The position numbers and the translations under genes were made by a program. Below the pieces are notes generated by a model. That model saw nothing but the letters and a program-made list of their open reading frames with translations. It did no database searches and was not told the DNA's origin. A stretch of DNA of 64,000 nucleotides from Terrimicrobium sacchariphilum (GTDB lineage: Bacteria; Verrucomicrobiota; Verrucomicrobiia; Chthoniobacterales; Terrimicrobiaceae). Of this stretch, positions 44,241-60,487 are shown one piece after another. The DNA lies in NCBI RefSeq assembly GCF_001613545.1, contig NZ_BDCO01000002.1, forward strand, positions 992,001 to 1,056,000, given 5' to 3'. Position 1 is the stretch's first letter. Each line of letters begins with the position of its first letter.

Positions 44241-44641
44241 TGAAAACGGGTTTTCTGGAACCTCTTCCGGGTTTCCGCTGGATGAGCTACAAGGACGGGC
44301 GGCAGACGCTGATTGATTCGCTAGTTTATGTTTCCCGGGGTGGTGAGCGGTTCGAGGTGCCAGCGGGATTTGTCACGGACTATGCTTCTGTGCCGTCGCT
44401 CTTCTGGAATATTCCAGGTTTCGATCCTTACGGCCCGGCGAAATTTCCGGCGGTGCTTCACGACTGGCTGTATTCCCTGCGCGGAGGCGAACCCCATGAA
44501 AAGAAGCGCGAGGAATGCGATGCGCTCTTCCTTGAAGCCATGCAGTCGGTTGGGGTTGGTTGGTTGCATCGACGGATCATCTGGGCGGCGGTACGGCTTT
44601 GTGGGGGACTCTGGTCGATGTCTCAACCCTGGGTGAAATGA
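44240..44641 (+). CDS. DUF1353 phage protein
   Basis: 133 residues. The DUF1353 signature is plain: FEVPAGFVTDYASVPSLFW ... AKFPAVLHDWLYSL ... ECDALFLEAM. The family is common in phage lysis/tail regions, and its biochemical role is unknown. Either ATG 44237 or 44240 could start it. Its stop overlaps the endolysin ATG. Confidence 0.85.
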   Translation: MKTGFLEPLPGFRWMSYKDGRQTLIDSLVYVSRGGERFEVPAGFVTDYASVPSLFWNIPGFDPYGPAKFPAVLHDWLYSLRGGEPHEKKREECDALFLEAMQSVGVGWLHRRIIWAAVRLCGGLWSMSQPWVK

Positions 44642-45171
44642 CGACGAAACCCATGCTGATTGACGGATCTCTGGCGAGGCTGATACCCACACCGATCGAC
44701 ATCGCTGCCCGCCATGTCGGGGCACGCGAGACATCTCGCAACAAGGGGCCGGAAATCGCGCTGTTCTGGAATGACACGACCTACCCTCGGGGCAATGAAA
44801 ACCGTGAACCCTGGTGCGCAGCCTTCGTTTGCTATTGTCTGGCGGAGGCGGCCCGGCAGGGTTGGCGACCAAAGGTCAAGACACTCCCGCGCGAGGCGGC
44901 GGTGCGGTATTTCCTCGACTGGTGTCGAGGTCGCTATGGCGTGGAGGTCTGGGCGAATGACGGGAGGCGATTGCCCCTGGCGGGAGACATTGCGGTGTTT
45001 CTGCCTCGCCTATCCCACATCGGGTTCGTCGAAAACGTCTCGGGGAGGACGCTCGGCACGATCGAGGGGAATACCGATGACGGAGGCGGCCGCGAAGGGG
45101 ACGGAGTGCATCGCCGCCAGCGTGCGCTCTCTTTTCCGGGGTGGTTTGTGCGGTTTCTTTCCTTCGCGTAA
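44638..45171 (+). CDS. CHAP-domain endolysin
   Basis: 177 residues. The catalytic Cys60 is in EPWCAAFVCYCLAEA, His127 is in GDIAVFLPRLSHIGFVEN, and the acidic/Asn residue is in TIEGNTDDGG (about 142-145): the Cys-His-Asn/Asp order of NlpC/P60-CHAP amidases or endopeptidases. It cleaves peptidoglycan at the end of the phage cycle. No separate cell-wall-binding domain is seen. Translationally coupled to the DUF1353 gene. Confidence 0.85.
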   Translation: MTTKPMLIDGSLARLIPTPIDIAARHVGARETSRNKGPEIALFWNDTTYPRGNENREPWCAAFVCYCLAEAARQGWRPKVKTLPREAAVRYFLDWCRGRYGVEVWANDGRRLPLAGDIAVFLPRLSHIGFVENVSGRTLGTIEGNTDDGGGREGDGVHRRQRALSFPGWFVRFLSFA

Positions 45172-45617: not shown

Positions 45618-45692
45618 GCTGTACGCCTCTTGCGGGCGATACGGGTTTTTGGCTTGGTTCCGAAATCGATATTTGATAGTTTCTCCTTATAT

Positions 45693-46160
45693 ATGTCGGG
45701 AAAGCAACGGATGAGACGAAGCGCGGCCCTCGGCGAGGTGATCTGCGAACGTCTGGCGGCTGGGGAAAGTCTGCGACGGATTTGCCGGGATGCCGGGATG
45801 CCGTCCCTGGCTTCCATTTATCGCTGGCTCCAGGCGGATGAGGCGTTCCGTGCGCAGTACGTGCTGGCGCGAGAGCACCAGGCGGACGCGCTCTTTGACG
45901 AGATCCTCGACATCGCGGATGACGGGACGAATGACTTTGTGGAAAAAGAATCCAAAACCGGCCTACGAACCATCGTGCTGCGGGAGGAGGCAATATCACG
46001 CTCTCGCCTGCGGGTGGAGGCTCGGAAGTGGATGATCGCCCGCCTCGCCCCGAAGAAGTACGGCGAGAAGCACGAGCCCAAGGGCGAATCCTCCGATACG
46101 CTGCTCGACTTCCTAGATGGAATCCGCGCGGCGGGCGAGCGCCGGGAGGGAGCGGAATGA
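45693..46160 (+). CDS. Small terminase subunit
   Basis: 155 residues. Helix-turn-helix at the N-terminus (ICERLAAGESLRRICRDAGM, then SIYRWLQADEAFRAQYVLAR) and an oligomerisation helix (LRVEARKWMIARLAPKKYG). It recognises packaging sites and feeds DNA to the large subunit. Its stop overlaps the large-subunit ATG (ATGA). Confidence 0.85.
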   Translation: MSGKQRMRRSAALGEVICERLAAGESLRRICRDAGMPSLASIYRWLQADEAFRAQYVLAREHQADALFDEILDIADDGTNDFVEKESKTGLRTIVLREEAISRSRLRVEARKWMIARLAPKKYGEKHEPKGESSDTLLDFLDGIRAAGERREGAE

Positions 46161-47701
46161 AGATCGACCATCTCAAGGACCGCCTCTGGAGGCTGCGCAA
46201 CCTCTACTCGATCAAGGATGCCGAGACGGGGCGGGTGATCCCCTTCGTGCCGCGTCCCGAGCAGGAGGCAGTGTTTCAGGCCCTCGCCGGGGGACATCGC
46301 AAGATCATCATTCTCAAGGCGCGGCGCCTTGGGATGAGCACGGCCATCGATGTCTATGCGGCGGACGAGGCAATATTCCACGCCGGGCGGCAGATCAGCA
46401 TCGTCGATCGCAACCAGGATGACGCGGGCAAAAAGCTGAGCGGCATTTGCAAGGTGGCCTTTGAGTCGCTGCCGACGGCAATCCGCGAGCGCTTCCTTAT
46501 CGTGCGGGACAACGACAGCTCGTGGCAGATCCAGACGCTCTCCGGCGATACCGTGAGCGCGATCTATGCTGGGAAAAACGCGCGAGGCGGGACGAACCAG
46601 CTCCTTCACATTTCCGAGTGGGGCGTGATCCAGGCGGATGATTCCGGGCGTTCCGAGGAGATCCTCACCGGGGCGCTGCCCTCGGCGGAGCATGGCGTAA
46701 CAATTATCGAGACGACGTGGAAGGGCGGGCGCAACGGCCACCTCTGGACGCTGGTGAAAGATGCCCTCGCCATCCCGGCGGAGCGGCGCACACTCCAGGA
46801 CTGGCGCTTGTTCTTCTTCCCCTGGTGGAACGATCCCACCTACCGCGAGGCGGGCGACGAATCGCGCATCGATCCGGAGCTGCGCGCCTACTTTGCGGAA
46901 AAGGAGGCCGAGATCGGGTGCACGTTCGACCTCGCGCAAAAGACCTGGTACGCACGGCGGCGGGCGAGCCTCGGAGTCTTCATGTACCGCGAGTTTCCCA
47001 CCACGTTTGACGAGTGCTTCCGTGCGCCGATCGACGGGGCCATCTACGCGCCGCTCCTGGACAACCTGCGGCGGCAGGGTGCGATCACCGGCGGGCCGGT
47101 CGATGGGAGTGGACTTGTCCATACGTTCTGGGATCTCGGGAGCCCGCTGAATACTGTCGTGTGGTACGTGCAGTTCGTCGGGCGCGAGATCCGCGTGGTC
47201 GATGTCGATCTCTCAAGTGCGGACACGCCGCTCGACCTCACTCCCGTGCAGCGTGTCTCCCGCATGCTGGCCAAGGGTTACGTTTACGGAACCCACTACC
47301 TGCCGCACGACGCGGCGGTGACGGAGCGCAGCGGGAGGACCTTCCAGAGCGAACTCACGGCGGCGGGCCTGGTCAATACCCGCATCATTCCGCGCACGGC
47401 GGACATCTGGGTCGGCATCAACCGCCTGCGTCAGCTTATGCCGCGCATGTCATTTCGCATCCCGGCCTGCGAGGCGGGTCTGGATGCGCTGGCAAATTAC
47501 CACACGCGCAGCCAGGGCGAGGGTGGCCGGGCCAGCGACGAGCCCGTGCATGACTGGTCGAGCCACGCCGCGGACGCCCTGCGCATGATGGCCGAGGCGG
47601 AAATGGCGGGGATGATCTCCTCCGGCGGCGCGGCGGCGCATTCCGGCCGTGTGGCGGTGAAGATGGCCGGCCGCACCAGGCGCTTTACCGCGCGGCATTA
47701 G
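46157..47701 (+). CDS. Large terminase subunit
   Basis: 514 residues. Walker A-like KARRLGMST (54-62) and Walker B LLHISEW (149-155) form the packaging ATPase. The C-terminal RNase H-like nuclease has HTFWDLGSPLNT, the acidic VVDVDLSS, and HDWSSHAADALR. It cuts concatemers and pumps DNA into the prohead. The full-length, uninterrupted frame argues that this gene is still under selection. Confidence 0.92.
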   Translation: MKIDHLKDRLWRLRNLYSIKDAETGRVIPFVPRPEQEAVFQALAGGHRKIIILKARRLGMSTAIDVYAADEAIFHAGRQISIVDRNQDDAGKKLSGICKVAFESLPTAIRERFLIVRDNDSSWQIQTLSGDTVSAIYAGKNARGGTNQLLHISEWGVIQADDSGRSEEILTGALPSAEHGVTIIETTWKGGRNGHLWTLVKDALAIPAERRTLQDWRLFFFPWWNDPTYREAGDESRIDPELRAYFAEKEAEIGCTFDLAQKTWYARRRASLGVFMYREFPTTFDECFRAPIDGAIYAPLLDNLRRQGAITGGPVDGSGLVHTFWDLGSPLNTVVWYVQFVGREIRVVDVDLSSADTPLDLTPVQRVSRMLAKGYVYGTHYLPHDAAVTERSGRTFQSELTAAGLVNTRIIPRTADIWVGINRLRQLMPRMSFRIPACEAGLDALANYHTRSQGEGGRASDEPVHDWSSHAADALRMMAEAEMAGMISSGGAAAHSGRVAVKMAGRTRRFTARH

Positions 47702-47705
47702 CTTT

Positions 47706-48068
47706 ATGAAACACCGTGAGCCGCCCGTGTTCCAGATCGCGGAGATGTACCGTGCCCAGGCCACGCGTTTGTCGTTTCGCGAGGAGCTCGATGGGTATTT
47801 GCAGCATGGCTACGTTTTCAATACGCCCGCTTTCTTTGTCATGGGGCGTGCAGTGTCCCGCCACGCGAGCCTTGAGGAAATCGTCGACCCGTGGCGGGTC
47901 TTCGCCCGGGAGGAGCAGGATGCGTGGTTCCTGGCCGCGCTGGCGGGTGACTGGCGCTCGCCGCTGCACCTCTTTCCGTATTCCCTCCCGTGGATCGGGT
48001 GGGAGAGGGGGCTGAAGAGCGGCTTGCGCTTCTGGCCGCTGGCGAGGGTGGCGCGCTATCGCGCCTGA
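47706..48068 (+). CDS. Conserved podophage protein of unknown function
   Basis: 120 residues: YVFNTPAFFVMGRAVSRHAS, VDPWRVFAREEQDAWFLAA, AGDWRSPLHLFPYSLPWIGW. This type of small protein occurs near packaging genes of several podophages. It occupies the place where a portal gene would normally lie. It is followed by 267 bp without a gene that lead to the capsid start. Confidence 0.6.
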   Translation: MKHREPPVFQIAEMYRAQATRLSFREELDGYLQHGYVFNTPAFFVMGRAVSRHASLEEIVDPWRVFAREEQDAWFLAALAGDWRSPLHLFPYSLPWIGWERGLKSGLRFWPLARVARYRA

Positions 48069-48335
48069 GGATTGCGCCTTTCGCGGAAACTTTCCGCAAA
48101 TTTTTTCACCAGCTGCCGAGCATCCCTTGCATGGGTTGCATGACTTAGGTTGCGATTAGCGTTCGTGGCTTAGTTTTTACTTCCTGTTTCTCCTTAAATG
48201 TGTATTGTTAAGGATGTCGAGCGGAGAACTCCTGGTGAGCCCGCCCACGGCGATTCCCGAAGGCTGGGACCTGCACGGTTGCAGATAATCCAGTCGGCCG
48301 AGGGGCGAACCAATTCCAACCAAGGAAAAAAACCT

Positions 48336-49238
48336 ATGGCAGCTATCAAGAGCATTCCGGAATACTATGTGACGGAATACGAGACAAACTGGAGCCACAA
48401 GGCCCAGCAGAAAATCTCCCTGCTCAAGGATCAGGTGATCCTCGACAACATCGACGGCAAGGAGAAGAGCTACAACAAAATCGGCACGGTCGAGTTTCAG
48501 CGGGTGACCGAGCGCGCGGGCGCCACGCGAGTGAGCGACCTCAGCCTCGAGAAGCGCTGGCTGCGCCCGTTCCCGTTTGACGACACGAAAGTCTTCGACG
48601 AGTGGGACGAAAAGTTCCTCGGCGAGATCAGCCTGCCGTCGAGCCAGCTCATGGAGGCCCAGGCGGCCGCCTATGCCCGGCTCGCCGATAGCATCATCCT
48701 GCAGGCCGCCGTGGGCGATGCCTACACGGGTGAAAACGGCGCGAGCGTCGTCTCCCTGCCGTCCTCGCAGACCGTCGCGGTGAACTACGTGGAGAGCGGC
48801 ACCGCTGCAAACAGCGGCCTCACCATCGGCAAGCTGCGCCGTGCGAAGTACATCCTCGACGACAACGACGTCGACGACATGGAGCCGCGCACCGTCGCGT
48901 ACTGCGCGAAGCAGCTCCAGGATCTCCTGCGCTCCGTCGAGATCGGCAGCAAGGACTACAACGCTGTGCAGGCGCTGGTCGACGGCCAGGTGAACAAGTT
49001 CCTCGGCTTCACCTTCAAGCGTGTGTCGAGCAAGGTGCTGCCCATCTCGGGCGGCGTGCGCCAGGTGGTCTTCTGGGCGAAGAACGGTCTGCGCCTCTCC
49101 GACAGTGGCAAGCAGACCCGCATGGACATCCTGCCGACCCAGTCGCACGCGCTCCAGGTGCGTTCCGTGGGCGTGCTCGGCGCGACCCGCGACGAGGAGG
49201 CCCGCGTGGGCATCATCTACTGCGACGAGACGGTCTAA
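48336..49238 (+). CDS. Major capsid protein (podophage type)
   Basis: 300 residues from MAAIKSIPEYYVTEYETNW, preceded by a purine-rich Shine-Dalgarno (AAGGAAAAAAAC). The segments QKISLLKDQVILDNIDGKEK, RRAKYILDDNDVDDMEPRTV and SHALQVRSVGVLGATRDEEA fit the capsid family of P22/phiKMV-like podophages. The position between packaging and tail genes agrees. An N-terminal extension to 48198 was rejected. Confidence 0.8.
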   Translation: MAAIKSIPEYYVTEYETNWSHKAQQKISLLKDQVILDNIDGKEKSYNKIGTVEFQRVTERAGATRVSDLSLEKRWLRPFPFDDTKVFDEWDEKFLGEISLPSSQLMEAQAAAYARLADSIILQAAVGDAYTGENGASVVSLPSSQTVAVNYVESGTAANSGLTIGKLRRAKYILDDNDVDDMEPRTVAYCAKQLQDLLRSVEIGSKDYNAVQALVDGQVNKFLGFTFKRVSSKVLPISGGVRQVVFWAKNGLRLSDSGKQTRMDILPTQSHALQVRSVGVLGATRDEEARVGIIYCDETV

Positions 49239-49836: not shown

Positions 49837-50433
49837 ATGGCAGCAAACCCGACCACCATCTGCAATCTCGCCCTGGCCCACCTCGGCGAGGATCACCTCA
49901 TGAGCCTCGACGACGACTCGCGCGAGGCGCAATTCTGCAAGCGCTTCTACGACCAGACGCGGGACGAGGTGATACAAAGCCACCCGTGGAATTTCGCCAT
50001 CCGCCGCGCCGTGCTTTCCCGGCTCGCGGAGGCTCCCGCCTTTGGCTGGGCCTGGCAGTATCAGCTCCCCGCCGACTGCCTGCGCATCCTCCAGCTCAAC
50101 GGCCACGATGTGTCGAAGCGCGAGGGCCGCTACGAGGTCGAGGGCGGCCGCCTGCTCACGAACGACGACGAGTGCGCCGTGCGCTACCTGCGCCGCGTGG
50201 AGGATGCCGCGTTGTTTCCTCCGCTCTTCGTCGAGGCGGTCGCTCTGAAGATCGCCACCCGCCTGGCGAAGCCCCTCACCGGCAGCACCTCCGAGGTGGA
50301 GCGCCTGCTCATCGAGTACGAACGAATCACCAAGCCTCTCGCCATGCGCGCCGATGCGCTGGAGGGCCGTCCCGCCGTGCGCCCGGCCTGGGTCGAGAGC
50401 GATTTCGTGCGCGCCCGCCGCGGAGGCATCTAA
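49837..50433 (+). CDS. Tail tubular protein A (T7 gp11-like)
   Basis: 198 residues, MAANPTTICNLALAHLGEDH, SLDDDSREAQFCKRFYDQTR, HPWNFAIRRAVLSRL, YQLPADCLRIL. This is the hallmark start of gp11-like tail-tube/adaptor proteins of podophages. Its partner gp12-like gene follows after 5 bp. Confidence 0.85.
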   Translation: MAANPTTICNLALAHLGEDHLMSLDDDSREAQFCKRFYDQTRDEVIQSHPWNFAIRRAVLSRLAEAPAFGWAWQYQLPADCLRILQLNGHDVSKREGRYEVEGGRLLTNDDECAVRYLRRVEDAALFPPLFVEAVALKIATRLAKPLTGSTSEVERLLIEYERITKPLAMRADALEGRPAVRPAWVESDFVRARRGGI

Positions 50434-50438
50434 AGATC

Positions 50439-52718
50439 ATGGCCTATCAGCTCATCCCCAGCTTCAACGCGGGAGAAATCTCGCCCTATCTCGACGCCCG
50501 CAGCGACCTGGAGAAGTACGCCTCCGGCTGCCGCCTGCTTGAGAACTTCATCATCCTGCCCTACGGCGGCGTCTACCGGCGTCCCGGCACCGAGTACCTC
50601 GGCCGGGCAAAGCATGCCGACTCGCGCTGCCGCCTCATCGGGTTCAACTTCTCCATCACCACGCGGTTCGTCCTCGAGTTGGGGAGTCAATACGTCCGCT
50701 TTTGGTCGAATGGCGTCCCGGTTACCACCACCGGCGGGCTGCCGCTTGAGCTCGCCACGCCCTACCTCGAGAGCGAGCTGCGCGACCTCCAGTACGTGCA
50801 GATCAATGACGTGATGTACTTCGTCCACCCCGCGCACGAGCCGCGCAAGCTCACGCGCCGGGCGGATACCGACTGGACCTTCGCGCCTGTCGCGTGGGAC
50901 TGGCCTGCCTTCCTTGATGACAATACCGACGCGACCACCATCACGCCCAGCGCCACGACGGGCACGGGAATCACGCTCACCGCGTCGGCGGCGACCTTTG
51001 AGAGCGGCCATGTCGGCGCGTACTGGCAGATCGCCCACGCCCGGGCCAATGCGTCGGTGACCGTCTCCATCACTGCGAGTAATACCTCGTCCTCCCTCGC
51101 CGTCATCGGCAGCTGGGAAATCACCACCTACGGCACGTGGGCGGGCACCGTGCAGGTGCAGCGCAGCGAGGATGGCGGCGCGACCTGGGAGACCATTCGC
51201 TCCTTCGCCTCCGAGAGCAATCGCAACGTCTCGGCCACCGGCAAGGAAAACAAGGAGGTCCTCCTGCGCCTCGCCGTCGCCTTTACCTCCGGCTCCGGCA
51301 CCGCGCGGCTCGAGGCCGTGCAGTCGCGCGAGTACGGCTTTGTGAAGATCACCGAGGTCACCGACTCCACCCATGCAAAGGCCGACGTGGTCAATGCCCT
51401 CACCGCCACCACGGCGACCAAGGCCTGGGCCGAGGGCGCATGGTCGCAGCGCCGCGGCTACCCGCGCACCGTCACCCTGCACGAGCAGCGGCTCTACTTT
51501 GGTGGCACCAGCGCGCGCCCGCAGTCGCTCTGGGGCAGCGTCATCGACGACTTTGAAAACTTCCGCGTCTCCTCGCTGGACGACTCCGGGTTGTTCTTCA
51601 CCCTCTCCGCGCAGGAGTCCAATCCCATCCAGTGGCTCCTCTCCCAGGACCAGCTCCTCATCGGCACCGCCGGCGACGAGTGGACGCTGGGCAGCAGCGA
51701 CAGCAACTCCGCCCTCACGCCCACCAACGTCCGCGCCGCCCGCCAATCCAGCTACGGGTCAAAGTCCCTCCGCGCCCTCATCATCAACGACGTCGTCCTC
51801 TTCGTCCAGCGCCAGGGGCGCAAGGTGCGCGAGCTCGTCTACTCCTTTGAGAAAGACGGCTGGGTCGCGCAGGATCTCACGCTCCTCTCCGAGCACATCA
51901 CCCGCGGCGAGGTGCTCGAGTGCGCCTTTCAGCAGCAGCCCGACGCCATTTACTGGACCATCACCGGCGCGGGCCAGCTCGTCGGCATGACCTACGAGCG
52001 CCTGCAAAACGTCGTCGGCTGGCACCGGCACACCACCGATGGCGCGTTTGAGAGCGTCGCCACCACCTACGGCGCGAATGGCGCGGACGAGGTCTGGGTC
52101 GCCGTGCGCCGCACCATCGACGGCCAGGAGGTGCGCTACATCGAGCGCTTCCGCACCGACTTCCGCGAGACCTTTGAGCAGGAGGACAAGGTCCACTGGT
52201 GGTACCTCGACTGCGCCCGGAGAGTAGTCAATACCCCCGAGTCCGCCACCGTCTCCGGCCTCGATCACCTGGAGGGAAAGAGCGTGGAAATCCTCGCCGA
52301 CGGCGCGGTCTCGCCCGGGCGCGAGGTCTCGGGCGGCGCGGTCACCCTGCAATCCCCCGCCGGCATCGTCCTCGCCGGGCTGCCCTTCACCTCCACCCTG
52401 CGCCCGATGAAGCTTGAGATGCCCGACCAGCAGGGCGCCTCCCGGGGCCGCAAAAAACGCATCCACCGCATGCTCCTCTCCCTGCACAAGTCCCTCGGCG
52501 GCGAGGTCTCCAGCGACGGCGGCGCGCGCTGGGGAGCAGTCTATTCCCGCTCCACCGGCGACCACATGGACGACAGCCCGCCCGTCTTCACCGGCGACAA
52601 AAACGTCGTCGTCGCGGGCAGCCATGCCACCTCGGCCGACATCGCCGTGCGCCAGGCCCAGCCCCTGCCGCTCACCGTGCTCGACCTCGTCCTGAAGTGG
52701 GAGGTCTATGGAGACTGA
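50439..52718 (+). CDS. Tail tubular protein B (T7 gp12-like tail nozzle)
   Basis: 759 residues, beginning AYQLIPSFNAGEISPYLDAR, with ENFIILPYGGVYRRPGTEYL and many beta-strands. Typical of the large nozzle protein of podovirus tails. Later segments (LHEQRLYFGGTSARPQSLWG, LLSQDQLLIGTAGDEWTLGS) are characteristic of the family. Overlaps the next gene by 11 bp. Confidence 0.88.
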   Translation: MAYQLIPSFNAGEISPYLDARSDLEKYASGCRLLENFIILPYGGVYRRPGTEYLGRAKHADSRCRLIGFNFSITTRFVLELGSQYVRFWSNGVPVTTTGGLPLELATPYLESELRDLQYVQINDVMYFVHPAHEPRKLTRRADTDWTFAPVAWDWPAFLDDNTDATTITPSATTGTGITLTASAATFESGHVGAYWQIAHARANASVTVSITASNTSSSLAVIGSWEITTYGTWAGTVQVQRSEDGGATWETIRSFASESNRNVSATGKENKEVLLRLAVAFTSGSGTARLEAVQSREYGFVKITEVTDSTHAKADVVNALTATTATKAWAEGAWSQRRGYPRTVTLHEQRLYFGGTSARPQSLWGSVIDDFENFRVSSLDDSGLFFTLSAQESNPIQWLLSQDQLLIGTAGDEWTLGSSDSNSALTPTNVRAARQSSYGSKSLRALIINDVVLFVQRQGRKVRELVYSFEKDGWVAQDLTLLSEHITRGEVLECAFQQQPDAIYWTITGAGQLVGMTYERLQNVVGWHRHTTDGAFESVATTYGANGADEVWVAVRRTIDGQEVRYIERFRTDFRETFEQEDKVHWWYLDCARRVVNTPESATVSGLDHLEGKSVEILADGAVSPGREVSGGAVTLQSPAGIVLAGLPFTSTLRPMKLEMPDQQGASRGRKKRIHRMLLSLHKSLGGEVSSDGGARWGAVYSRSTGDHMDDSPPVFTGDKNVVVAGSHATSADIAVRQAQPLPLTVLDLVLKWEVYGD

Positions 52719-53181
52719 GGCCGCATCGCACCGCCCGATGAAGCCGTACCTGCAGCTACGAGAGTTCGACCCCGCGCGGGATTACGCCATGATCGAGGAG
52801 TGGCACGCGGAGCATGGGCGGTGCGCCCCGCCGCTCCAGATGCTCCCGCGCCTCGGCATCATCATCTACGAGCAGCCCTCGGGCCGCGACCTCGCAGCCA
52901 TCTGGCTCTACATGGACAATTCCGTCGGCGTCTGCTTCCCCGAGCAGATCGTCACGCGGCCCGGGTTGGGAATGAAAGCGGCGCGCGCCGCGCTGCTCAC
53001 GGGGCTGGATTTTTTGAAGCGCCGGGCGAGGGCGCTGGGTTACTGGGCCATGGTCGTGCACACGCTGCCGGCCATCGCCCGCACATTGAAATCACGCGGG
53101 TGGGCCGCCACCTGCCCGCCGGAAAAGATCACCATGATCACGACACTATTGGAGGAGGAAAACGATGGGTACGGGAGCTGA
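52708..53181 (+). CDS. GNAT-like small phage protein
   Basis: 157 residues (ATG 52738 is also possible). REFDPARDYAMIEEWHAEHG, the strands IWLYMDNSVGVCFPEQIV and AARAALLTGLDFLKRRARAL, and MVVHTLPAIARTLKSRGWA resemble a GNAT acetyltransferase fold. Small acetyltransferase-like genes at this position are frequent in podophages. The catalytic status is uncertain. It overlaps both neighbours. Confidence 0.6.
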   Translation: METEAASHRPMKPYLQLREFDPARDYAMIEEWHAEHGRCAPPLQMLPRLGIIIYEQPSGRDLAAIWLYMDNSVGVCFPEQIVTRPGLGMKAARAALLTGLDFLKRRARALGYWAMVVHTLPAIARTLKSRGWAATCPPEKITMITTLLEEENDGYGS

Positions 53182-53941
53182 ACTGGCACCTTATTTGATT
53201 GCGATGACTGTGACCTCGATTGCCGCATCGGCAGCGAGCACCGGCATCAGCATGTACTCGCAGCAGGAGCAGGCCAAGACCGCCAGCGCCATTGCGGATT
53301 ACAACTACGACATCGAGCGCCAGAATGCCGAGGTGCAGGCCAAAATGGCCCAGCAGCAGGCCCTCTGGCGGCAGCAGGCCGCGCAGGTCCAGTATCAGCT
53401 CGACCAGAACAACGCGCAGTACATGGATCAGCAGGCGCGCGCCGTCCAGATGCAGGCGGAGGAAAAAGCCCGCCGCGTCCGCGAGGAAGGCGAGCGCACC
53501 CTGGCCAAGCAGCGCGCGCAATACGCCGCCTCGGGAGTCGTTAATGAAGGCACTCCGCTTGCCGTCCTCAGCGAATCCGCCGGGCTGATCGAGCTGAATG
53601 CCCAGGACGCCATTTACGAGGGCGACGTGCAGTCCCGCGACTGGCTGCGCAAGGCCGAGGAGGCCCGGTATCAGTCAAAATTCAGCCTCTTCGACCAGCA
53701 GACCGCCGGTTATGAGGCAGCCGCCGCCAAGGCGGGCAAGGTCATCAGCCTCCAGACTGCGGAGTTGAACCGCGCCGCTGGCAAGGCCCAGGCCGAGGGC
53801 TACCGCATCAGCTCCTACGGCACTCTGCTTGGCGGAGTCTCCGACATCGCCAGCACGGCCAGCTATGGGCTCGACCGATACTCCAGCCTGCGCAAGGACG
53901 ACGCGCTCAAGTCCACCGCCGCGAAAACTTCCACCAACTAA
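53165..53941 (+). CDS. Internal virion protein (T7 gp14-like)
   Basis: 258 residues: N-terminal hydrophobic Ala/Ser-rich segment (AMTVTSIAASAASTGISMYS), then a long Gln/Ala-rich coiled region (NAEVQAKMAQQQALWRQQAA) and the conserved AKQRAQYAASGVVNEGTPLA ... GDVQSRDWLRKAE. Such proteins leave the capsid first and form the trans-envelope ejection channel. Confidence 0.8.
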   Translation: MGTGAELAPYLIAMTVTSIAASAASTGISMYSQQEQAKTASAIADYNYDIERQNAEVQAKMAQQQALWRQQAAQVQYQLDQNNAQYMDQQARAVQMQAEEKARRVREEGERTLAKQRAQYAASGVVNEGTPLAVLSESAGLIELNAQDAIYEGDVQSRDWLRKAEEARYQSKFSLFDQQTAGYEAAAAKAGKVISLQTAELNRAAGKAQAEGYRISSYGTLLGGVSDIASTASYGLDRYSSLRKDDALKSTAAKTSTN

Positions 53942-53951
53942 GCAACCACCC

Positions 53952-55379
53952 ATGTCACGAGTCTATTTGCAGGAAATCCCCAACGCGCCGCAGAGCGTGG
54001 GCGGAGGGGTGATGATGAGGGCCGACGTGCGCGTGCCGGGCAATGTGGCCGGGAGCCTGTTGCAGGCCAAGATCCCTCAGGGAGCCTTTGACGGTCCGGC
54101 GCAGGGCATGGCGGCAGTGGCGCGCGGGCTGGCCGAGGCGGGGAAGATCCCGATGAAAGCCTATGCCGCCATCGAGCACTGGCAGCAGACCGAGCGCGAG
54201 GTGCGCGATTTCAAGGGGCTGACCGACATCGAGCTGAACTACCGCAACGCCAATGCCTCCCTCGACGAGCAGCTCCGCACCCAGCCCGAGAGCCAGTGGC
54301 CCGCCGCGATGAGCGCCTTTGCCAAGTCCACCCGCGACTACGCAGCCAAGCAGCCGCTGAGCGACGCCGCGCGAGCCCGGGCCGACCAGTACGAGCGCAG
54401 CCAGCTCATCGGGGCGCAGCAGCGCATGGTGAACCGCAGCCGCTCCGACCTCATCCAGGGCGCGCGGGATTCCGCCATCACGCTCAGCCAGCAGCTCAAC
54501 GACACGGGCCGTTACGAGGACGCCGTCACGCTGATGACCCAGGCGCGCGACAGCGGGCTCATCACGGTGGACGAGGAGGAGCGCTTCCACCAGCAGGCCA
54601 TCGTGCGCCTGAACCACCGCAACATGCAGCAGCTCATCGGCTCCGATCCCTGGATGGCGCAGAGCGTGCTGGAGGAGGATGAAAAGCTGAGCCAGCACCC
54701 CGACGGCCGCGAGCACATGAGCTACCGCGCCCTCACCGACGACGACCGGGCCAATTACCTCACCGCCGCCCGCCAGCAGATCACCGAGCGTCAGCGCACC
54801 ACGACTGCCGGGCTGGATACCGCCATCACCAGCGGCCAGCTCCGCGACGCCGCCGACCTCAGCGCCCGCGCCGCCCAGGCCCATTTGCCGAAGGAAGAGG
54901 TTGCCTCGCTCAAGCGCAGCCTGCGCGACATCCCCGTCGACACCGAGCCGACGCACGCCCGCTACCTCGCGAATCAATCGCTGCTCACCACCGCCCTGGA
55001 AACCTACGACCCGCAGGCCGATACGGGCGACGCGGGTTACGCCGCCCTGCGCCGCAGCATCCGCGAGAATATCCCGCTGGCTCGGCGCGAGGAGTGGTTC
55101 CAGCGCCTCGACGCTCGCCGCCAAAAGGGCCGCAGTGAAACCTCCCTCATCACCGGCAACCTCTACGAACAGCTCGATCTCGTCGCCCGCCACATCGGCG
55201 GCAGCGAGAGCGACCCGCGCCGCGTCGCCACCCTGTGGTCCGGCGTGCAAGCCGTGAAAACCGCGCTGCCGGAGTATATAAGGAGGAACGCTAATGCCAC
55301 CCCGGCGGAAACGAAGCGCTGGATGATGGGATTCCTGCGTCCCGACGTGATGACAAGCACCCTCAAAAGGAATCGCTGA
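53952..55379 (+). CDS. Internal virion protein (T7 gp15-like)
   Basis: 475 residues from MSRVYLQEIPNAPQSVGG. Almost entirely alpha-helical, with repeated helix pairs (RYEDAVTLMTQARDSGLITV, YLTAARQQITERQRTTTAGL). This order (gp14-like, gp15-like, then a large protein) mirrors the ejection-protein operon of podophages. 2 bp separate it from the next gene. Confidence 0.75.
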   Translation: MSRVYLQEIPNAPQSVGGGVMMRADVRVPGNVAGSLLQAKIPQGAFDGPAQGMAAVARGLAEAGKIPMKAYAAIEHWQQTEREVRDFKGLTDIELNYRNANASLDEQLRTQPESQWPAAMSAFAKSTRDYAAKQPLSDAARARADQYERSQLIGAQQRMVNRSRSDLIQGARDSAITLSQQLNDTGRYEDAVTLMTQARDSGLITVDEEERFHQQAIVRLNHRNMQQLIGSDPWMAQSVLEEDEKLSQHPDGREHMSYRALTDDDRANYLTAARQQITERQRTTTAGLDTAITSGQLRDAADLSARAAQAHLPKEEVASLKRSLRDIPVDTEPTHARYLANQSLLTTALETYDPQADTGDAGYAALRRSIRENIPLARREEWFQRLDARRQKGRSETSLITGNLYEQLDLVARHIGGSESDPRRVATLWSGVQAVKTALPEYIRRNANATPAETKRWMMGFLRPDVMTSTLKRNR

Positions 55380-55381
55380 CG

Positions 55382-57484
55382 ATGTTGATTGAGACACCCG
55401 GCTCGAATGAGCCCATGGACGAGGTATTGCCGCGTCCCTTCACCCTGGAAACCCCGCCGCCCAGACTGGACTCCTCGCCCGGCCAGCCGCAGGGAGCGGA
55501 GACAAACCTGCTGCCGACCTCGCCCAGCCCGGCGGGCGACCGCTGGATGAATATCTTCCATGGCGACGAGACGTGGCAGGGGCGCTGGAATCCGGAGAAC
55601 GACGTTCTGCTTTCGTTCGTCGACGACCCCGAGAGCTTCAAAATGTCGGTGGGCAACGCGCATTGGATCGCCGACCAATACGGCGAGACGCTGGACGCGG
55701 TGGGAGCGGCCTACCCGATGGCGCAGATGCTTGTCTCGCAGGAGCTGCTCGGCCACATGGACGGGAGCGACGAGGACGTGTTTCGAGCCATCGGCGACAG
55801 CCTCGTGCCGACGCTGACCATGGAGGACATCACGGGCGTGCGCGAGCAGCCGCTCAGTCGGCTGGAGAGCTACGTGCCGCGCTCGATCTACCTGAGCAAC
55901 CGAGTGTCGGAGCTGGAGGAGGCGATTTCCTACAGCGATCTCGGGCGCAAGGTCTTCACCCTATCCTGGTCCGGCGGGCTGCCTCCGGGAGTGTCGCTCA
56001 GCGACGCGGAGGCCGAGCAGATCGGAAGGCAGGCCTGGCGTGAGAAGAGGGCGGAGGAAAAACGGCGCAAGTCGTTTGAGAACTACGACGAGTTTCAACT
56101 GGAAAAGACCCTCTTCGGGTCGATGGCCGAGAGCAGTCTCACCATGGCTGAGGGTCCGGTCTTCTGGCTGGACAAGCGGCTGGAGCTGCAGCCCGGCCTC
56201 GGGTACGAAGGGACGACGGCGGACACGTGGATGAATGCCACGCTGGGCTTCTTTGAGGGCCAGAGAAAGCTGGCGCGGGAATACTACGCGGTGGACCCGG
56301 AGTTTGCGGAGAGCTACGCCGGGAAGGTCGCGGGAGCCGTGGGCGCAGCCGTGCCGCAGCTCGTGGCGATGCGCGTCCCCATCGCGGCCGTGGTGGGAAT
56401 CGGCGGTCAGTCGTTCCTGCACGCCTGGGAGGATGCCGAGAATACGGCGATGCGGCGGGGCGAGGAGTTCGATCCAAACCGCGCCTATGCCTACGCCACG
56501 ACGATGGCGGCGCTGAATACCGCGCTGACCTTCCTGGAGTTTGACAAGGTGCTCGGCCCGTGGAGGAAGGGGCAGAGCGAACTGCTGGGCGACAACCTGA
56601 TCAAGCTCTTCCAGAGCGCCACAGGGGCAGGAGCGGTCAATGCCGTGCAGGGAGGAGTCAACGACCTCGGAGCCACCGCCTTCGGCATCGAGACCCGCAA
56701 TCCCTTCGACCTGGAACGCCGCTGGGACGACTTCACCGTCGGAACCGGCGCAGGCATCGTGCTCGGCGCAGGGGCGAGGGTGGCATTAGCCGACATCCCG
56801 GAAACGCCCACGCAACGACCTCCCCTGAAACCAGGCATTACCTTCGTAGATTCGCTCGGGAAGCAGGAGGTGCCTATTCTTCACGAGGACCTTTCGGTCA
56901 TAAAGAAAAAGGAGGAGGCGGATGTCAGCCTTGATGCCAAAACGCTCGAAGGGACGGGCAAGTTAACGGTTGAAGAAGCAGTTCGTCTCGTTAAGGAACA
57001 TCCGAGTCATATCGTTACTGAGGCCTTAACCGCATGGTTTGGAAAAGCGCATTCACGTATTCAAAGTGGAAGGCTTCTGGCCTATAAATATGTACTAAAG
57101 AGTTTTTTGAATAGATTGCCGCCTTTTCAAGCGGGAGATCGTGTTTTATATCGGGGGTTTCGCTTCCGGACAGAAGAGGAGCGATCGAGTTTTCTAAAAC
57201 AGTTTTCTGGAGCTGAATGGCTGAATGCGAGGCCTTTCTTGAGCGCGTCAACAGATGTGGCTGTGGCGTATGAATTTGCAACGTATTGGCCGTATCCATT
57301 GCTAATGGAAATTCGCAAGTCGCATTCAGCACGAAATATTGAGCCCTTCTCGTTCTTGGACGAGCGATACGCTTATCAAAAAGAGCTGCTTTTTACTGAT
57401 GATGCGATCTTTCGGGTCCTTGGTGTTGTCAAGCTTGAGGAGAATGGGCGCGTGATGTATCAAGTGATCGTGGAGGAGAAATAA
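55382..57484 (+). CDS. Large ejection (internal virion) protein with C-terminal ADP-ribosyltransferase domain
   Basis: 700 residues. Residues 1-490 form the virion part: a Pro-rich start, helical segments, and two hydrophobic Gly/Ala-rich stretches (VAGAVGAAVPQLVAMRVPIA, GTGAGIVLGAGARVALA). SLGKQEVP (491-498) marks a junction. After it the DNA becomes visibly lower in GC and the protein changes character. Residues ~585-700 carry the R-S-E ART signature: Arg591 in VLYRGF, SxS at 621-623 in FLSAST, QxE (Gln666, Glu668) in YQKELLF. ARTs transfer ADP-ribose from NAD+ to a target. Delivered with the phage ejection apparatus, it could act on the infected cell. The part before the junction is homologous to 58281-59902. 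Confidence 0.8.
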   Translation: MLIETPGSNEPMDEVLPRPFTLETPPPRLDSSPGQPQGAETNLLPTSPSPAGDRWMNIFHGDETWQGRWNPENDVLLSFVDDPESFKMSVGNAHWIADQYGETLDAVGAAYPMAQMLVSQELLGHMDGSDEDVFRAIGDSLVPTLTMEDITGVREQPLSRLESYVPRSIYLSNRVSELEEAISYSDLGRKVFTLSWSGGLPPGVSLSDAEAEQIGRQAWREKRAEEKRRKSFENYDEFQLEKTLFGSMAESSLTMAEGPVFWLDKRLELQPGLGYEGTTADTWMNATLGFFEGQRKLAREYYAVDPEFAESYAGKVAGAVGAAVPQLVAMRVPIAAVVGIGGQSFLHAWEDAENTAMRRGEEFDPNRAYAYATTMAALNTALTFLEFDKVLGPWRKGQSELLGDNLIKLFQSATGAGAVNAVQGGVNDLGATAFGIETRNPFDLERRWDDFTVGTGAGIVLGAGARVALADIPETPTQRPPLKPGITFVDSLGKQEVPILHEDLSVIKKKEEADVSLDAKTLEGTGKLTVEEAVRLVKEHPSHIVTEALTAWFGKAHSRIQSGRLLAYKYVLKSFLNRLPPFQAGDRVLYRGFRFRTEEERSSFLKQFSGAEWLNARPFLSASTDVAVAYEFATYWPYPLLMEIRKSHSARNIEPFSFLDERYAYQKELLFTDDAIFRVLGVVKLEENGRVMYQVIVEEK
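56852..56875 (+). other. Junction motif SLGKQEVP, copy 1
   Basis: Encodes the last residues shared by the intact virion protein and the truncated second copy. The DNA TCGGGAAGCAGGAGGTGCCT is identical in both. Everything downstream differs. Confidence 0.7.
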
Positions 57485-57485
57485 T

Positions 57486-57722
57486 ATGGAGGAGAAAAGA
57501 AAAAAAAGCTGGGAAGAATTTCGAAAGCGCCTTCCAGAAGGTCCAATCTCAAGTGAACAATTTGAGCAGCTTCTTTTGGCGGCGATGAGGGAAGCTGACG
57601 ATTTTGAGCCGCCGAGTCCGGAAAGAATGCGGGCTTTCGACAGATTTTGGGACCCGGACTACGATCCTTTTCGAGAAGAGGAGCCGCCCGATCCATCGGG
57701 TAACGGCAAGGCTGCGTCGTAA
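57486..57722 (+). CDS. Small acidic protein, immunity candidate for the ART domain
   Basis: 78 residues: MEEKRKKSWEEFRKRLPEG, then EQFEQLLLAAMREADDFEPP and an acidic DPDYDPFREEEPPDP end. It starts 1 bp after the stop of the ART-bearing gene. The tight spacing, small size and acidity fit an immunity protein. No family recognised, so this is inference. Confidence 0.55.
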   Translation: MEEKRKKSWEEFRKRLPEGPISSEQFEQLLLAAMREADDFEPPSPERMRAFDRFWDPDYDPFREEEPPDPSGNGKAAS

Positions 57723-57809: not shown

Positions 57810-58076
57810 ATGCAGAACAAAACGTTTTCAGTTCCGAAAGAGGCTTCCCCTGATGTTGTATTGGAAAAAATCAACCAAGGACTGAAGCCGATTTGCCCGG
57901 TTTGCAAAGGGGAGATATTGGTTGCTCGTCGCAAGGGCGACGGCAAAGCGGAAGGCGCTGTCTCCAGTTTGAGATGTCGTTCCTCCGACAGTCATTTCTT
58001 TATCCATTTTCTATTTATGGAAGATGCTCGACGCCTTGAGGCTATCCTCGAGGAGAAGAAGCAAGGAAACGAATAG
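57810..58076 (+). CDS. Small zinc-ribbon-like protein
   Basis: 88 residues. CPVC at about 29-32 is followed by a Cys at about 50 and several His residues (SSDSHFFIHFLF), suggesting a metal-binding ribbon. A protein with a similar CPxC layout (59914) follows the second toxin-like cassette. It may be an immunity or regulatory partner. It is separated from the preceding gene by about 87 bp of GC-rich spacer. Confidence 0.55.
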   Translation: MQNKTFSVPKEASPDVVLEKINQGLKPICPVCKGEILVARRKGDGKAEGAVSSLRCRSSDSHFFIHFLFMEDARRLEAILEEKKQGNE

Positions 58077-58101: not shown

Positions 58102-58274
58102 GGGAAGGGATCGGGCCTATAATATACATGTCGCGAGGCGTGTAAGCGGTGATCGGATGCTTCAGAGAAGAGTCGCGATTTGGAGATTCGCTGCGCAAAC
58201 GCGAACCATGGGAGTATTGCCTAGAATGCGTTCTCCGAGGTCGAACATGTAAATTATAGGCCCGACCCCTTCCC
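58102..58274. mobile_element. Short element bounded by ~30-bp inverted repeats (MITE-like)
   Basis: The left arm (58102-58133) contains GGGCCTATAATATACATGT. The right arm (58243-58274) contains ACATGTAAATTATAGGCCC. Arms pair with only a few mismatches. The ~110-bp interior is homologous to 63615-63735 and has no gene. The element ends 6 bp before the truncated virion-protein copy starts (58281). Its size and ends suggest a non-autonomous mobile element; no target duplication was confirmed. Confidence 0.6.
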
Positions 58275-58759
58275 CATACGCCCTGGATCGCCGAGCACCT
58301 CGGCGAGTCGCACGACGCCGTCACCCGCGCCTACCCCATGGCCCTCGGCCTCACCTCCCTGCGGCTCCTCGGCCACATGGACGGCACCGACCGCGATGTT
58401 TACCATGCTATTCGGCTGAGCCTCGTACCCGAGCTGACTCCGGAGGACGTCGCCAAGGTGAAGACAGTTCCCTTGAGCCTCACTCAGTATTACCTGCCGG
58501 ACCTCGTGGATGAGGAAAACCGGGTGCCGGAGCTGGACGAAAGCCGCGCCTATTTTCAGATCGGCGAGTTTCCACTCAATCTTCCGATAGCGCAGCATGA
58601 GGACCGGACGCCGGGAGAGATCGAAATGCTCGGTCGCGCCCGCTGGGACAAGAGCCTTGAGCAGAAAGGCACGCCTGCGCCGCAGCGCAATGGCAATCTC
58701 GCGACCGACATCGTCAAAAGCTTCTTCGGCGGTATGGCGGAAAGTTCTTTCACGATGTT

Positions 58760-58766
58760 GGGGGGG
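58760..58766 (+). other. Poly-G tract at the frameshift
   Basis: Seven consecutive G at the exact point where the homologous reading frame changes. It could be a decay mutation, a phase-variable tract or a sequencing error. Confidence 0.7.
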
Positions 58767-59452
58767 CCAAGTTCTTTGGAGATAAGGTGGCCGAGTTCAT
58801 TCCCGGTTACGAGGGGTCATTCTTCGATAAATCGACAAACGCCGAAATCGCCCTCCTCCAGTGGCAGCGAGGCATTATGCAGAACTTCTATCACGTCGAC
58901 CCGGAGTTCGCGCAGAGCTATGCCGGGGAGCTCTCGAGCACTCTCGGTGCGACGGTGCCGCAGATGTTGTCGATGACGTTGCCGCCCGTGGCTGCGACCA
59001 TGATCGGCGGGCAATCCTTCCTGTACGCTTGGGAAGATGCGGAAAATACAGCCAAGCGGCTGGGCCAGTCCTTCAATCGCAACCGGGCCTTTGCCTATGC
59101 GCTTACGATGGGAGCGGTCAATGCGGCGATGACGATGGTGAAGTTCGACCTGACCGTGAAACCGTGGCTGAACGCGGAGGGCCGATCGCTGGTCAACAAC
59201 GCCTTCAAGCTCCTCCGCACCACACTCCTCGGCACGGTGACCAATGTCGGCCAGGGAACGATTAATGATGCCATTGCCTCAGGTTTCGGCATCGAATTTC
59301 GCAACCCCCTCGACCTGGAGCGCCGCAAGCACGACGCCCTGCTCGGTGCGGGAACAAGCCTCGTCCTCAGCCTCGGCGGCATGACATTAGCTCCCGCCGC
59401 CGAAAAAACCGCCCAGCCCCCGCCCGAGAAACCCGGCGTTATCTTCGATAAA

Positions 59453-59476
59453 TCCCTCGGGAAGCAGGAGGTGCCT
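59453..59476 (+). other. Junction motif SLGKQEVP, copy 2
   Basis: Same residues and nearly the same DNA as at 56852-56875, immediately before the exchanged C-terminal domain. Confidence 0.7.
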
Positions 59477-59913
59477 CAATCGCCCTTGCCGCCGAAGACA
59501 GACGTTGAAAATTTACGGTTAACCCCCCAAAGACTTGCGGATAATTTAAACGAAAGATCGGTCGCGTTAAATAATGAAGGAGCGAGATACGTCCTTCCGA
59601 AAGATCGAACTGCGGTCAATGAGTTTGTCAGAACTACGCTAGCTGATTTTCGCGCGAATGGAGGAATTATCCGGAATATAAAAACTCCTCAGACCTTTTT
59701 TGGGCGATACCATTCGAAGAATAACATTATTGAACTTGCGCCCGGAAGAGGGCTTGATACGCTTGTTGAAGAGTTGATTCATTATCGACAGGCGCAGGAA
59801 GATAATCTGGTTGGAAGGTTGTCGTTTCCTGGAATGCCTAATCGTTACGAGGCAGATGCGGTAGATCGACTTATAGAGTTGGGATTTATTCCGGTTAACT
59901 AAAATTTAATTTT

Positions 59914-60186
59914 ATGATTTATCAGGGAAAAAGATATGGCGTTTTTGGTAAGGAGCTGGATTTCCTCGTTAAGAGAGTTTATGAAAAAGATGCTTTGGCT
60001 TCCATCGAGGCGCATTTATGCCCGCAGTGTTCTGCGCCTTTGAAGGTAGGCTTTTATCCCGATGGCAAAGCATTTCTTATAGGTTGCGAAGGGAAAGTTC
60101 CTCACTATACGCAATGCCAGTATATCGACACCCCGCCGGCCTGGTGGCAGGAACGGGTAGTGGAGGTGACGGAATGGCTTGAATAA
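59914..60186 (+). CDS. Small zinc-ribbon-like protein, immunity candidate
   Basis: 90 residues: MIYQGKRYGVFGKELDFLVK, then CPQC at about 38-41, Cys at about 56, and HYTQC near 63-67, a likely metal site. It lies 11 bp after the metallopeptidase-like domain. Low GC like that domain. Resembles in layout, not in sequence, the protein at 57810. Confidence 0.6.
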   Translation: MIYQGKRYGVFGKELDFLVKRVYEKDALASIEAHLCPQCSAPLKVGFYPDGKAFLIGCEGKVPHYTQCQYIDTPPAWWQERVVEVTEWLE

Positions 60187-60487
60187 CTCGCTGTTTTGGA
60201 GAGATGCAGGGAAATCCGCGGAAGTGAAAGACTACATTTTTAATCAACTGAAAAAGGGTAAGGATCATCTTCGAAACCTGGATATGAATGTCACTCAGGA
60301 TATTCCAGGAGAAGAGGTGTTGGGAGTTTATCGAAATAACAGTGGAGAGAATATTTCGTTGACGGACGTGGCGTTGCATTCCCCTTCAATCGGTAGAATT
60401 GAGTATAAACAGATTGATGATGTTCATTCTGTCGGGGAAGCGACGAAAGTATGTGAGCTCATTTTGGAACTAATGCGGCAACCATAG
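60179..60487 (+). CDS. Small hypothetical protein, immunity candidate
   Basis: 102 residues from a TTG that overlaps the preceding gene by 8 bp: NSLFWRDAGKSAEVKDYIFN ... LGVYRNNSGENISLTDVALH ... ATKVCELILELM. No known family. Last gene of the island and low in GC. Its coupling to the preceding gene suggests both serve the orphan cassette. Confidence 0.5.
   Translation: MNNSLFWRDAGKSAEVKDYIFNQLKKGKDHLRNLDMNVTQDIPGEEVLGVYRNNSGENISLTDVALHSPSIGRIEYKQIDDVHSVGEATKVCELILELMRQP

Follow-up and report, generated by a model that had tools for sequence, protein, structure and literature searches.

We report an ADP-ribosyltransferase (ART) domain of the R-S-E class that forms the C terminus of a 700-amino-acid protein, here termed the carrier, encoded in a phage element of the soil bacterium Terrimicrobium sacchariphilum. 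The stretch of DNA analyzed, hereafter called the window, comprises 64,000 nucleotides (contig NZ_BDCO01000002.1, positions 992,001 to 1,056,000, forward strand). Our preferred explanation, which we consider rather likely, is that the ART is an exchangeable effector tip on a protein at the last ejection-protein position, accompanied by a 78-amino-acid immunity gene, in a particle kept by the bacterial host. The evidence, drawn from sequence comparisons, comprises the domain itself, the fold of a homologue, the exchange of the module, the distribution of phage genes over two loci, and selection on those genes. The exchange, the role of the small gene and the split, conserved phage genes lie beyond the first-pass annotation of this DNA, which had been made from the letters alone.

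Positions 55382-57484, + strand: carrier protein (700 amino acids), whose C terminus is the ART; final gene in the ejection-protein run; from the open reading frame (ORF) list and comparison with the congener LR76
Positions 56966-57481, + strand: ART domain, carrier residues 529-700; from motif, homology, profiles and a homologue model
Positions 57152-57154, 57242-57244, 57248-57250, 57377-57379 and 57383-57385, + strand: codons of the ART motif residues Arg591, Ser621, Ser623, Gln666 and Glu668, respectively
Positions 56780-57493, + strand: exchanged segment, with no blastn similarity to LR76 between flanks of 96.4% (left) and 97.6% (right) identity
Positions 57486-57722, + strand: acidic putative immunity gene (78 amino acids), one nucleotide past the ART stop codon, with a near-identical broken relic in LR76

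An ADP-ribosyltransferase domain at the carrier C terminus

The first-pass annotation had placed an arginine, an SxS and a QxE motif in the order and spacing typical of R-S-E enzymes, and all of these are indeed present in the 700-residue ORF at 55382-57484: VLYRGF begins at residue 588 (Arg591), FLSAST at 619 (Ser621 and Ser623) and YQKELLF at 665 (Gln666 and Glu668). Because 2,202 of 20,000 shuffles of the domain's residues also contain the loose pattern R..SxS..[EQ]xE, the motif alone is modest evidence, suggestive but not decisive; a stricter form with hydrophobic flanks was matched by 8 of 20,000 shuffles. The motif gains weight because a domain that is 48% identical in Spartobacteria bacterium LR76 (a congener; ART-bearing contig QAYZ01000010.1) retains VLYRG, SAS and YQKE. 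When five domains are aligned, R591, S621, S623 and E668 provide four of the nine invariant columns (each residue in all five domains), while the first position of QxE is Gln in four and Asp in one (L018). Alignments suggest that Arg591, Ser621 and Glu668 are equivalent to the catalytic residues of other ARTs.

Profile searches point to the same enzyme class. The LR76 domain scores 23.1 bits (E 5.1e-5) against PF03496 (ADPrib_exo_Tox), just below the cut-off of 23.4. A two-row profile of the window and LR76 domains, searched against solved structures, finds the Vis toxin first (E 0.0093), with the remaining nine rows being unrelated proteins at E 0.23 or above. Adding three relatives from other Verrucomicrobiota genomes yields a five-row profile that matches Vis at E 8.8e-7, and HopU1, a PAAR-linked ART (6dre and 6drh) and SpvB (two rows) account for the five further rows below E 1; this profile is partly circular, since it includes L018, itself a member of PF03496 (3.8e-14). 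Profile-profile comparison of the two-row profile with an alignment of four other ARTs gives a probability of 93.9 (P 1.5e-7).

The LR76 domain was modeled (predicted local distance difference test [pLDDT] 61.1, predicted template modeling score 0.58) with the aid of L069, one of nine loci 99-100% identical to an L024-type query. Foldseek returns ART structures first (E 2.2e-6), and the first 50 include chains of anthrax lethal factor, which we take to contain an ART-like domain. In VIA, the best 50 of 231 chains with Z of at least 2 are all ART toxins or complexes with one (Z 9.2-11.1), as judged by entry title or by the known identity of the protein. Neighbors of the model include HopU1 (Z 11.1), 6dre (10.3), Vis (10.0), and SpvB and VIP2 (both 9.8), where differences in Z of less than 1 are ties. 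The comparison of folds that the first-pass annotation had proposed thus gives an ART-like result for the LR76 homologue, the model of the window's own domain having a pLDDT of 36.

Through the near-cut-off PF03496 score, the Vis match, the profile-profile comparison and the homologue fold, the assignment to the R-S-E class made in that annotation is supported. We regard it as nearly certain that carrier residues 529-700 form an ADP-ribosyltransferase, and treat the matter as settled because of homology: the sister domain keeps every motif residue and its model has the ART fold.

The whole carrier matches no Pfam or NCBIfam family at E 1, and the Pfam scan at that threshold accordingly includes neither the MuF domain (PF04233) nor an LPD or other polyvalent-type domain. 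Matches to PHROG are weak. The best for the carrier is a family of unknown function (E 0.0045), and the ART region matches a minor head protein at E 0.089 and phrog_832, an RNA polymerase ADP-ribosylase, at E 0.32.

The tip and a small downstream gene change together

Comparison with LR76 (blastn) gives 96.4% DNA identity over 53951-56779 and 97.6% over 57494-57702, and the segment between them, which holds the ART, has no similarity. In LR76 the counterpart of 57494-57702 sits downstream of that genome's own ART and a 75-amino-acid gene. It contains a relic of the window's 78-amino-acid gene, broken by an early in-frame stop and 98.4% identical over the 63 residues after the stop. The simplest reading of these sequences is that one toxin-immunity unit took the place of another, whose immunity gene stayed and then decayed.

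The small genes of the window and LR76 are 33-34% identical and the ARTs 48%. Both small genes begin at, or within one or two nucleotides of, the ART stop codon, and their products are acidic (pI 4.6 and 4.5) whereas the ART domains are basic (pI 8.8 and 8.2). Carrier residues 1-465, by comparison, are 98% identical to LR76, with a ratio of nonsynonymous to synonymous substitution rates (dN/dS) of 0.087. These sequences therefore present features by which polymorphic toxins are recognized: a conserved N-terminal carrier with a variable C-terminal tip and a sharp boundary, a downstream small gene that changes with the tip (in one comparison), and orphan modules with left-over immunity genes. 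It is quite probable that the tip and the downstream small gene constitute a polymorphic toxin-immunity module.

A profile of the small genes has matches in 74 of 387 Verrucomicrobiota genomes at E 1. None was counted as real; the best beyond the window's own copy has E 6.6e-4 and internal stops, and the next have E of at least 0.0039.

The carrier occupies the last ejection-protein position

Besides the carrier, the phage element comprises the following parts.

Positions 40330-41685, + strand: tail fibre/tail protein (phrog_1640, E 2.6e-33)
Positions 44560-45171, + strand: endolysin (phrog_9589, E 3.1e-13)
Positions 45630-46160, + strand: terminase small subunit (TerS), Sf6 type (PF20901, E 1.7e-43)
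Positions 46028-47701, + strand: terminase large subunit (TerL), ORF as listed, likely start near 46154 (phrog_2, E 1.9e-20)
Positions 47702-48197, + strand: gap between terminase and capsid genes with only a 120-amino-acid ORF; the site at which portal and head-assembly genes occur in two fuller sibling prophages
Positions 48198-49238, + strand: major capsid protein (PF19821, E 1.1e-59; phrog_3437, E 1.1e-46)
Positions 49837-50433, + strand: tail tubular protein A-like (TTA; epsilon15 gp11), E 1.6e-23
Positions 50439-52718, + strand: tail tubular protein B-like (TTB; epsilon15 gp12; phrog_376 tail protein, E 1.7e-216)
Positions 52708-53181, + strand: gp13-position gene, identity by position only
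Positions 53165-53941, + strand: gp14-like internal virion protein (phrog_418 internal virion protein, E 2e-17; epsilon15 gp14, E 8.3e-5)
Positions 53952-55379, + strand: gp15-position gene, 475 amino acids, identity by position

The order TerS, TerL, capsid, TTA, TTB, gp13-position, gp14-like, gp15-position and carrier is that of epsilon15, except that the ejection run is one gene shorter and the tail fibre lies on the opposite side. Sequence matches link TTA to gp11, TTB to gp12, the gp14-like protein to gp14, and a portal protein at a second locus (see below) to gp4. The gp13-position, gp15-position, capsid and carrier proteins have no significant match among epsilon15 proteins. A 743-amino-acid gene at the second locus weakly matches gp17 (E 3.3e-4 in a search of 11 proteins).

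The carrier is thus an ejection-type protein by position only. A review of ejection proteins describes a gp14-gp15-gp16 cluster and calls gp16-like proteins poorly conserved (PMC8954989). The first-pass annotation had expected a virion protein that enters the cell with the phage DNA. The gene order agrees, placing the carrier after TTA, TTB and the gp13-position, gp14-like and gp15-position genes, but the carrier itself matches no known ejection protein. On the strength of synteny we consider delivery by a particle somewhat more probable than its opposite.

Particle genes lie at two conserved loci

Three congeneric genomes were compared: that of the window (G000), a third congener (G001) and LR76 (G002). 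The element adjoins the PFOR gene in all three. The window's genome also contains the two fuller sibling prophages, which have, between TerL and capsid, genes for a portal (561 amino acids each; phage records call its relative a 'head-tail connector'), a protein of 104 amino acids (listed for one), one of 182 or 260 and one of 292 or 297. No protein of this block matches the window at E 1e-5. Instead, a portal resides at a separate locus in each of the three genomes.

G000:C2:847441-849093 (L090): second-locus portal in the window's genome
G002:C14:220878-222530 (L091): second-locus portal in LR76
G001:C64:42273-43931 (L092): second-locus portal in the third congener

In G001 and G002, portal, TerL and capsid are single-copy genes, and the contig with the portal is not the one with the capsid gene. 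Three copies of each occur in G000, where the third portal and the window's capsid gene share a contig at a distance of about 190 kb. The second locus holds the same block, namely portal, the 104-amino-acid gene, part of the 182-amino-acid gene and the 292-amino-acid gene; no other reference-prophage protein, including TerL, capsid and TTB, was matched there. Among the three genomes the block is 93-96% identical, and upstream sequence is also shared. The particle genes do not resemble an ordinary prophage, being conserved and divided between two loci in each of three congeneric species; the host therefore probably keeps the particle.

At the end of the second locus there are likewise a gp15-like gene, a gene at the effector position (743 amino acids in G000 and LR76, 1044 in G001) and small genes, with duplication in LR76. 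The gp15 of the second locus in G001 aligns at 92% identity with the window's first-locus gp15 (residues 1-409), whereas the first-locus gp15 of G001 is only 29% identical to it, a pattern that fits cassette exchange between the two loci.

Further details of these arrays were noted in passing. Behind the 743-amino-acid effector gene of LR76, two tandem small-gene copies (L091 15985-17177; listed as 193 and 175 amino acids, 72.6% identical) look as if immunity genes accumulate. Farther along (L091 17650-18735) lies a 361-amino-acid orphan with HEIYHH, metallopeptidase-like by eye, that is 29.7% identical over part of its length to a fuller-prophage gp16-position protein and adjoins a fragment resembling, by eye, the first-locus gp15. 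The fuller prophages are at G000:C3 ~766-790 kb (L078, L047) and G000:C2 ~1.968-1.991 Mb (L079, L048). Their gp16-position proteins of 1927 and 1901 amino acids share 33% identity in the N-terminal part and 86% in the C-terminal half, so that conservation runs opposite to that seen in the window.

Most element genes tested are under purifying selection

All 12 element genes compared with LR76 are free of stops and have dN/dS values of 0.03-0.16. The capsid, TerL, TTA, TTB, 120-amino-acid and 153-amino-acid genes give 0.03-0.14 in both comparisons, gp15 and the carrier 0.09 against LR76, and the portal 0.017 and 0.047. Synonymous divergence (dS) of the capsid, 153-amino-acid, TTA, TTB, gp15 and carrier genes is 0.09-0.21 (gp15 and carrier against LR76 only). 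The values resemble those of the host PFOR gene (0.14 and 0.19), as expected for vertical descent; dS is higher for TerS, TerL, the 120-amino-acid gene, the tail fibre and gp14. Phage structural genes under purifying selection at conserved host loci, a property of gene transfer agents, are thus found in all three genomes, with exceptions in G001 and in the 743-amino-acid gene that are given below.

Broken copies, orphan modules and other genes of the arrays

Downstream of the module, the window carries further pieces of the array.

Positions 57810-58076, + strand: small gene (88 amino acids) with one CPxC motif, candidate further immunity gene (ORF list)
Positions 58102-58275, no strand assigned: repeat of ~170 bp with inverted ends, three copies near an LR76 contig end, directly before the broken carrier copy
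Positions 58338-58976, + strand: first piece of a second, broken carrier copy, aligned with carrier residues 113-259 at 40% identity
Positions 58787-59902, + strand: second piece, in another frame and with a different C terminus, 48% identical to carrier residues 274-498
Positions 59914-60186, + strand: small gene (90 amino acids), candidate immunity gene of the second module (ORF list)
Positions 60179-60487, + strand: small gene (102 amino acids), candidate immunity gene (ORF list)

The tip of the broken copy matches no Pfam family and contains VEELIHYRQ, metallopeptidase-like by eye only. The repeat at 58102-58275 also occurs in other arrays, as translated matches, and may be a miniature inverted-repeat transposable element that helps to move or break modules. 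Kinship between the two small genes with CPxC found no support (E 11).

In G001 the gene at the carrier's place is listed as 1474 amino acids and is 38% identical over 752 residues to the gp16-position protein of a fuller prophage. A free fragment matching its last 76 residues (46.8% over 77 columns, E 2.4e-17) lies at the second locus in the genome of the window. A 447-amino-acid orphan follows the 1474-amino-acid gene, composed of a carrier remnant (45% identical to its neighbor and 54.6% to another prophage's protein) and a tip. The orphan matches no Pfam family, and its tip resembles a region of two proteins at L051, of 1003 (53.8%) and 1681 (32.5%) amino acids; the region of the latter matches Kinase-PolyVal at 25.2 bits, below the cut-off of 27.

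Other features lie farther from the carrier. Downstream of the ART module, the LR76 array includes a zeta-toxin domain protein (L009 4065-5177, - strand; PF06414, E 9.6e-13). Units of about 150 bp repeated at window positions 6159-6640 and 8155-8540 have many matches to one LR76 stretch. Just past the phage element, 60917-63586 is an 889-amino-acid, repeat-rich ORF with a tail that is PEP-CTERM-like by eye.

Proposed function and alternative explanations

In the scheme we favor, whose packing, delivery, toxicity and immunity steps we infer, the C-terminal 170 residues would act as an R-S-E mono-ADP-ribosyltransferase of the Vis/Tre1/C3/SpvB/VIP2 kind with a Gln-x-Glu motif, and the gene one nucleotide downstream would confer immunity to it. 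Recombination would replace tip and small gene together, so that orphan tips and superseded small genes remain, a pattern known from polymorphic toxin systems. The carrier would be packed in a short-tailed particle and would enter the target cell with the ejected proteins and DNA, where the ART would use NAD+ to modify a target; cells holding the matching small gene would be spared. The host would retain the particle as a device for competition, DNA transfer or both. Possibly, then, this is a domesticated, toxin-armed, DNA-transferring particle, although that a domesticated particle moves DNA is a tentative proposal. Also on the doubtful side of even is a more specific model. In it, the genus keeps one short-tailed, epsilon15-like particle, with terminase, capsid, tail and ejection genes at PFOR and portal and head-assembly genes at the second locus. 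Each locus would end in a polymorphic effector/immunity array, cassettes would be traded between them, and the particle would deliver DNA together with a kin-discriminating enzyme.

A number of observations weigh against the favored scheme. The window's own ART domain matches no Pfam family at E 5, and its structural model, built with two aligned rows, is unusable. The LR76 model is of middling confidence (pLDDT 61), from a three-row alignment that includes a viral ART. The carrier has no significant match to epsilon15 gp15-gp17, and G001 has no homologue of it. Exchange of the ART is seen in one independent congener only, because the IMG/VR contig L008 (7,282 bases) matches LR76 at 100% identity throughout. 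Phage operons often contain small genes, and a profile of the 78-amino-acid family found no convincing relative elsewhere in the 387 Verrucomicrobiota genomes. The selection data have their own irregularities: the dN/dS of the tail fibre is little informative because its dS is near 2; against G001 the values are 0.52 for the gp13-position gene, 0.27 for gp14 and 1.10 for gp15 (28% identity, saturated); the aligned TerS of G001 contains one stop; the 743-amino-acid second-locus effector gives 0.35; and the second-locus values leave out the 104- and 292-amino-acid head genes.

Some of these irregularities would suit a decaying prophage, in which a defunct operon would carry an ART without a current role. 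The missing portal and head-assembly genes at the window locus, the broken second carrier copy with the inverted-end repeat beside it, the relic small gene of LR76 and the stop in the G001 TerS all fit decay. However, the dN/dS values and the lack of stops in all 12 element genes compared with LR76 speak for maintenance, and the missing portal is intact elsewhere, with ratios of 0.017 and 0.047. We therefore find this explanation very doubtful. An active role might instead serve the phage. According to two papers (PMC9503650, PMC5512222), the Alt enzyme is injected with T4 DNA, and a similar ART would modify host proteins (RNA polymerase, for example) for the phage, the downstream gene then being an unrelated small phage gene. 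The weak phrog_832 match points in this direction; against it stand the joint change of tip and small gene on a carrier otherwise about 96% identical in DNA, the survival of an old small gene as a relic, and an operon that has no portal genes and looks domesticated. We consider such a phage-serving enzyme unlikely.

The small gene might also serve superinfection exclusion only: it would shield lysogens of a normal temperate phage, and rival lysogens receiving the ART upon infection would be harmed. Two fuller sibling prophages are present in the same genome, and MuF toxins are hypothesized to be delivered with phage DNA and to require immunity (PMC5576092), from which an exclusion role would be our extrapolation. 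Yet the element lies beside PFOR in all three genomes and lacks the portal block, unlike a normal mobile temperate phage, and Pfam finds nothing in the 1927-amino-acid gp16-position protein of one fuller prophage. This explanation is, in our judgment, quite unlikely. We return, then, to an exchangeable ART tip in a host-kept particle as the best account.

Phage-borne polymorphic toxins are known on MuF proteins and raise the question of why virions carry antibacterial toxins. With a toxin tip on an ejection-position protein of an apparently domesticated operon, experiments could tell effects on phage fitness from those on host competition. Should the split element package DNA, kin discrimination by a toxin and DNA transfer would be joined in a single particle, and, if this is true, a gene transfer agent would favor recipients that hold the matching immunity gene.

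Comparison with known systems

Relatives of the ART are sparse. The two-row profile (E at most 0.001) finds it in 4 of 387 Verrucomicrobiota genomes, including the window's own, and one of the other three relatives (L018) is a MuF protein by Pfam. PF03496 occurs in 5 of 236 genomes of the class, in 4 of them above the cut-off. Searches of viral contigs for relatives returned LR76's own contig or nothing; the L024-type query retrieved the nine loci noted above. Among 50,697 phage records (tblastn), neither the full carrier nor the window's ART domain has a match, and the LR76 domain has one weak match (E 0.4). Candidates set aside were an N-terminal match in G005 (E 3.9e-4), apparently antisense to a long host ORF, and L016, L024 and L026, which are MuF-like by eye and were not counted, Pfam finding no family in L016. 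Titles and abstract beginnings of the literature matches, with subscription papers mostly outside coverage, contain no description of an ART or polymorphic toxin on an ejection protein or a gene transfer agent, and those listed include no gene transfer agent in this phylum.

The element resembles gene transfer agents in that intact terminase, portal, capsid and tail genes occur in more than one locus and are conserved in several species. No replication, integration or mobility gene was recognized among the ORFs scanned, with no search aimed at integrases. It differs in its epsilon15-like gene set and toxin-like tips.

Among ART toxins, Vis is the best sequence match, and Vis and 6dre, titled an ADP-ribosyltransferase toxin/immunity pair and presumably Tre1, are structural neighbors of the LR76 model. 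The aligned Vis has Glu-x-Glu where the window's enzyme has Gln-x-Glu, and the latter is borne by a phage-operon protein. An enzyme with Gln-x-Glu may favor a target residue other than arginine.

Polyvalent proteins of phages (Iyer 2017, PMC5512222) are likewise virion-borne multidomain effectors, with a prototype ART of the H-Y-D type in contrast to the R-S-E type of the window. LPD37 and LPD3 are found in the G001 effectors that occupy the same positions, and the 1681-amino-acid homologue elsewhere carries LPD37 with the sub-cut-off Kinase-PolyVal match. The window's carrier differs in having no LPD match and in being accompanied by immunity-like genes and module replacement.

Bxa, a prophage ART whose antibacterial action is experimentally established, has two immunity proteins (PMC11699363), and a survey places ARTs in only 3% of siphoviruses and podoviruses, many of them fused to MuF (PMC9503650). 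MuF polymorphic toxins of temperate phages are a close parallel in several respects. As published (Jamet 2017), they are phage-encoded head proteins with variable C-terminal toxins, ART tips among them, followed by small downstream immunity ORFs, and delivery together with phage DNA is proposed (PMC5576092). The carrier described here differs in that it has no MuF domain, occupies the last ejection-protein position of a podovirus-type operon, and belongs to an element whose particle genes are split between two conserved loci.

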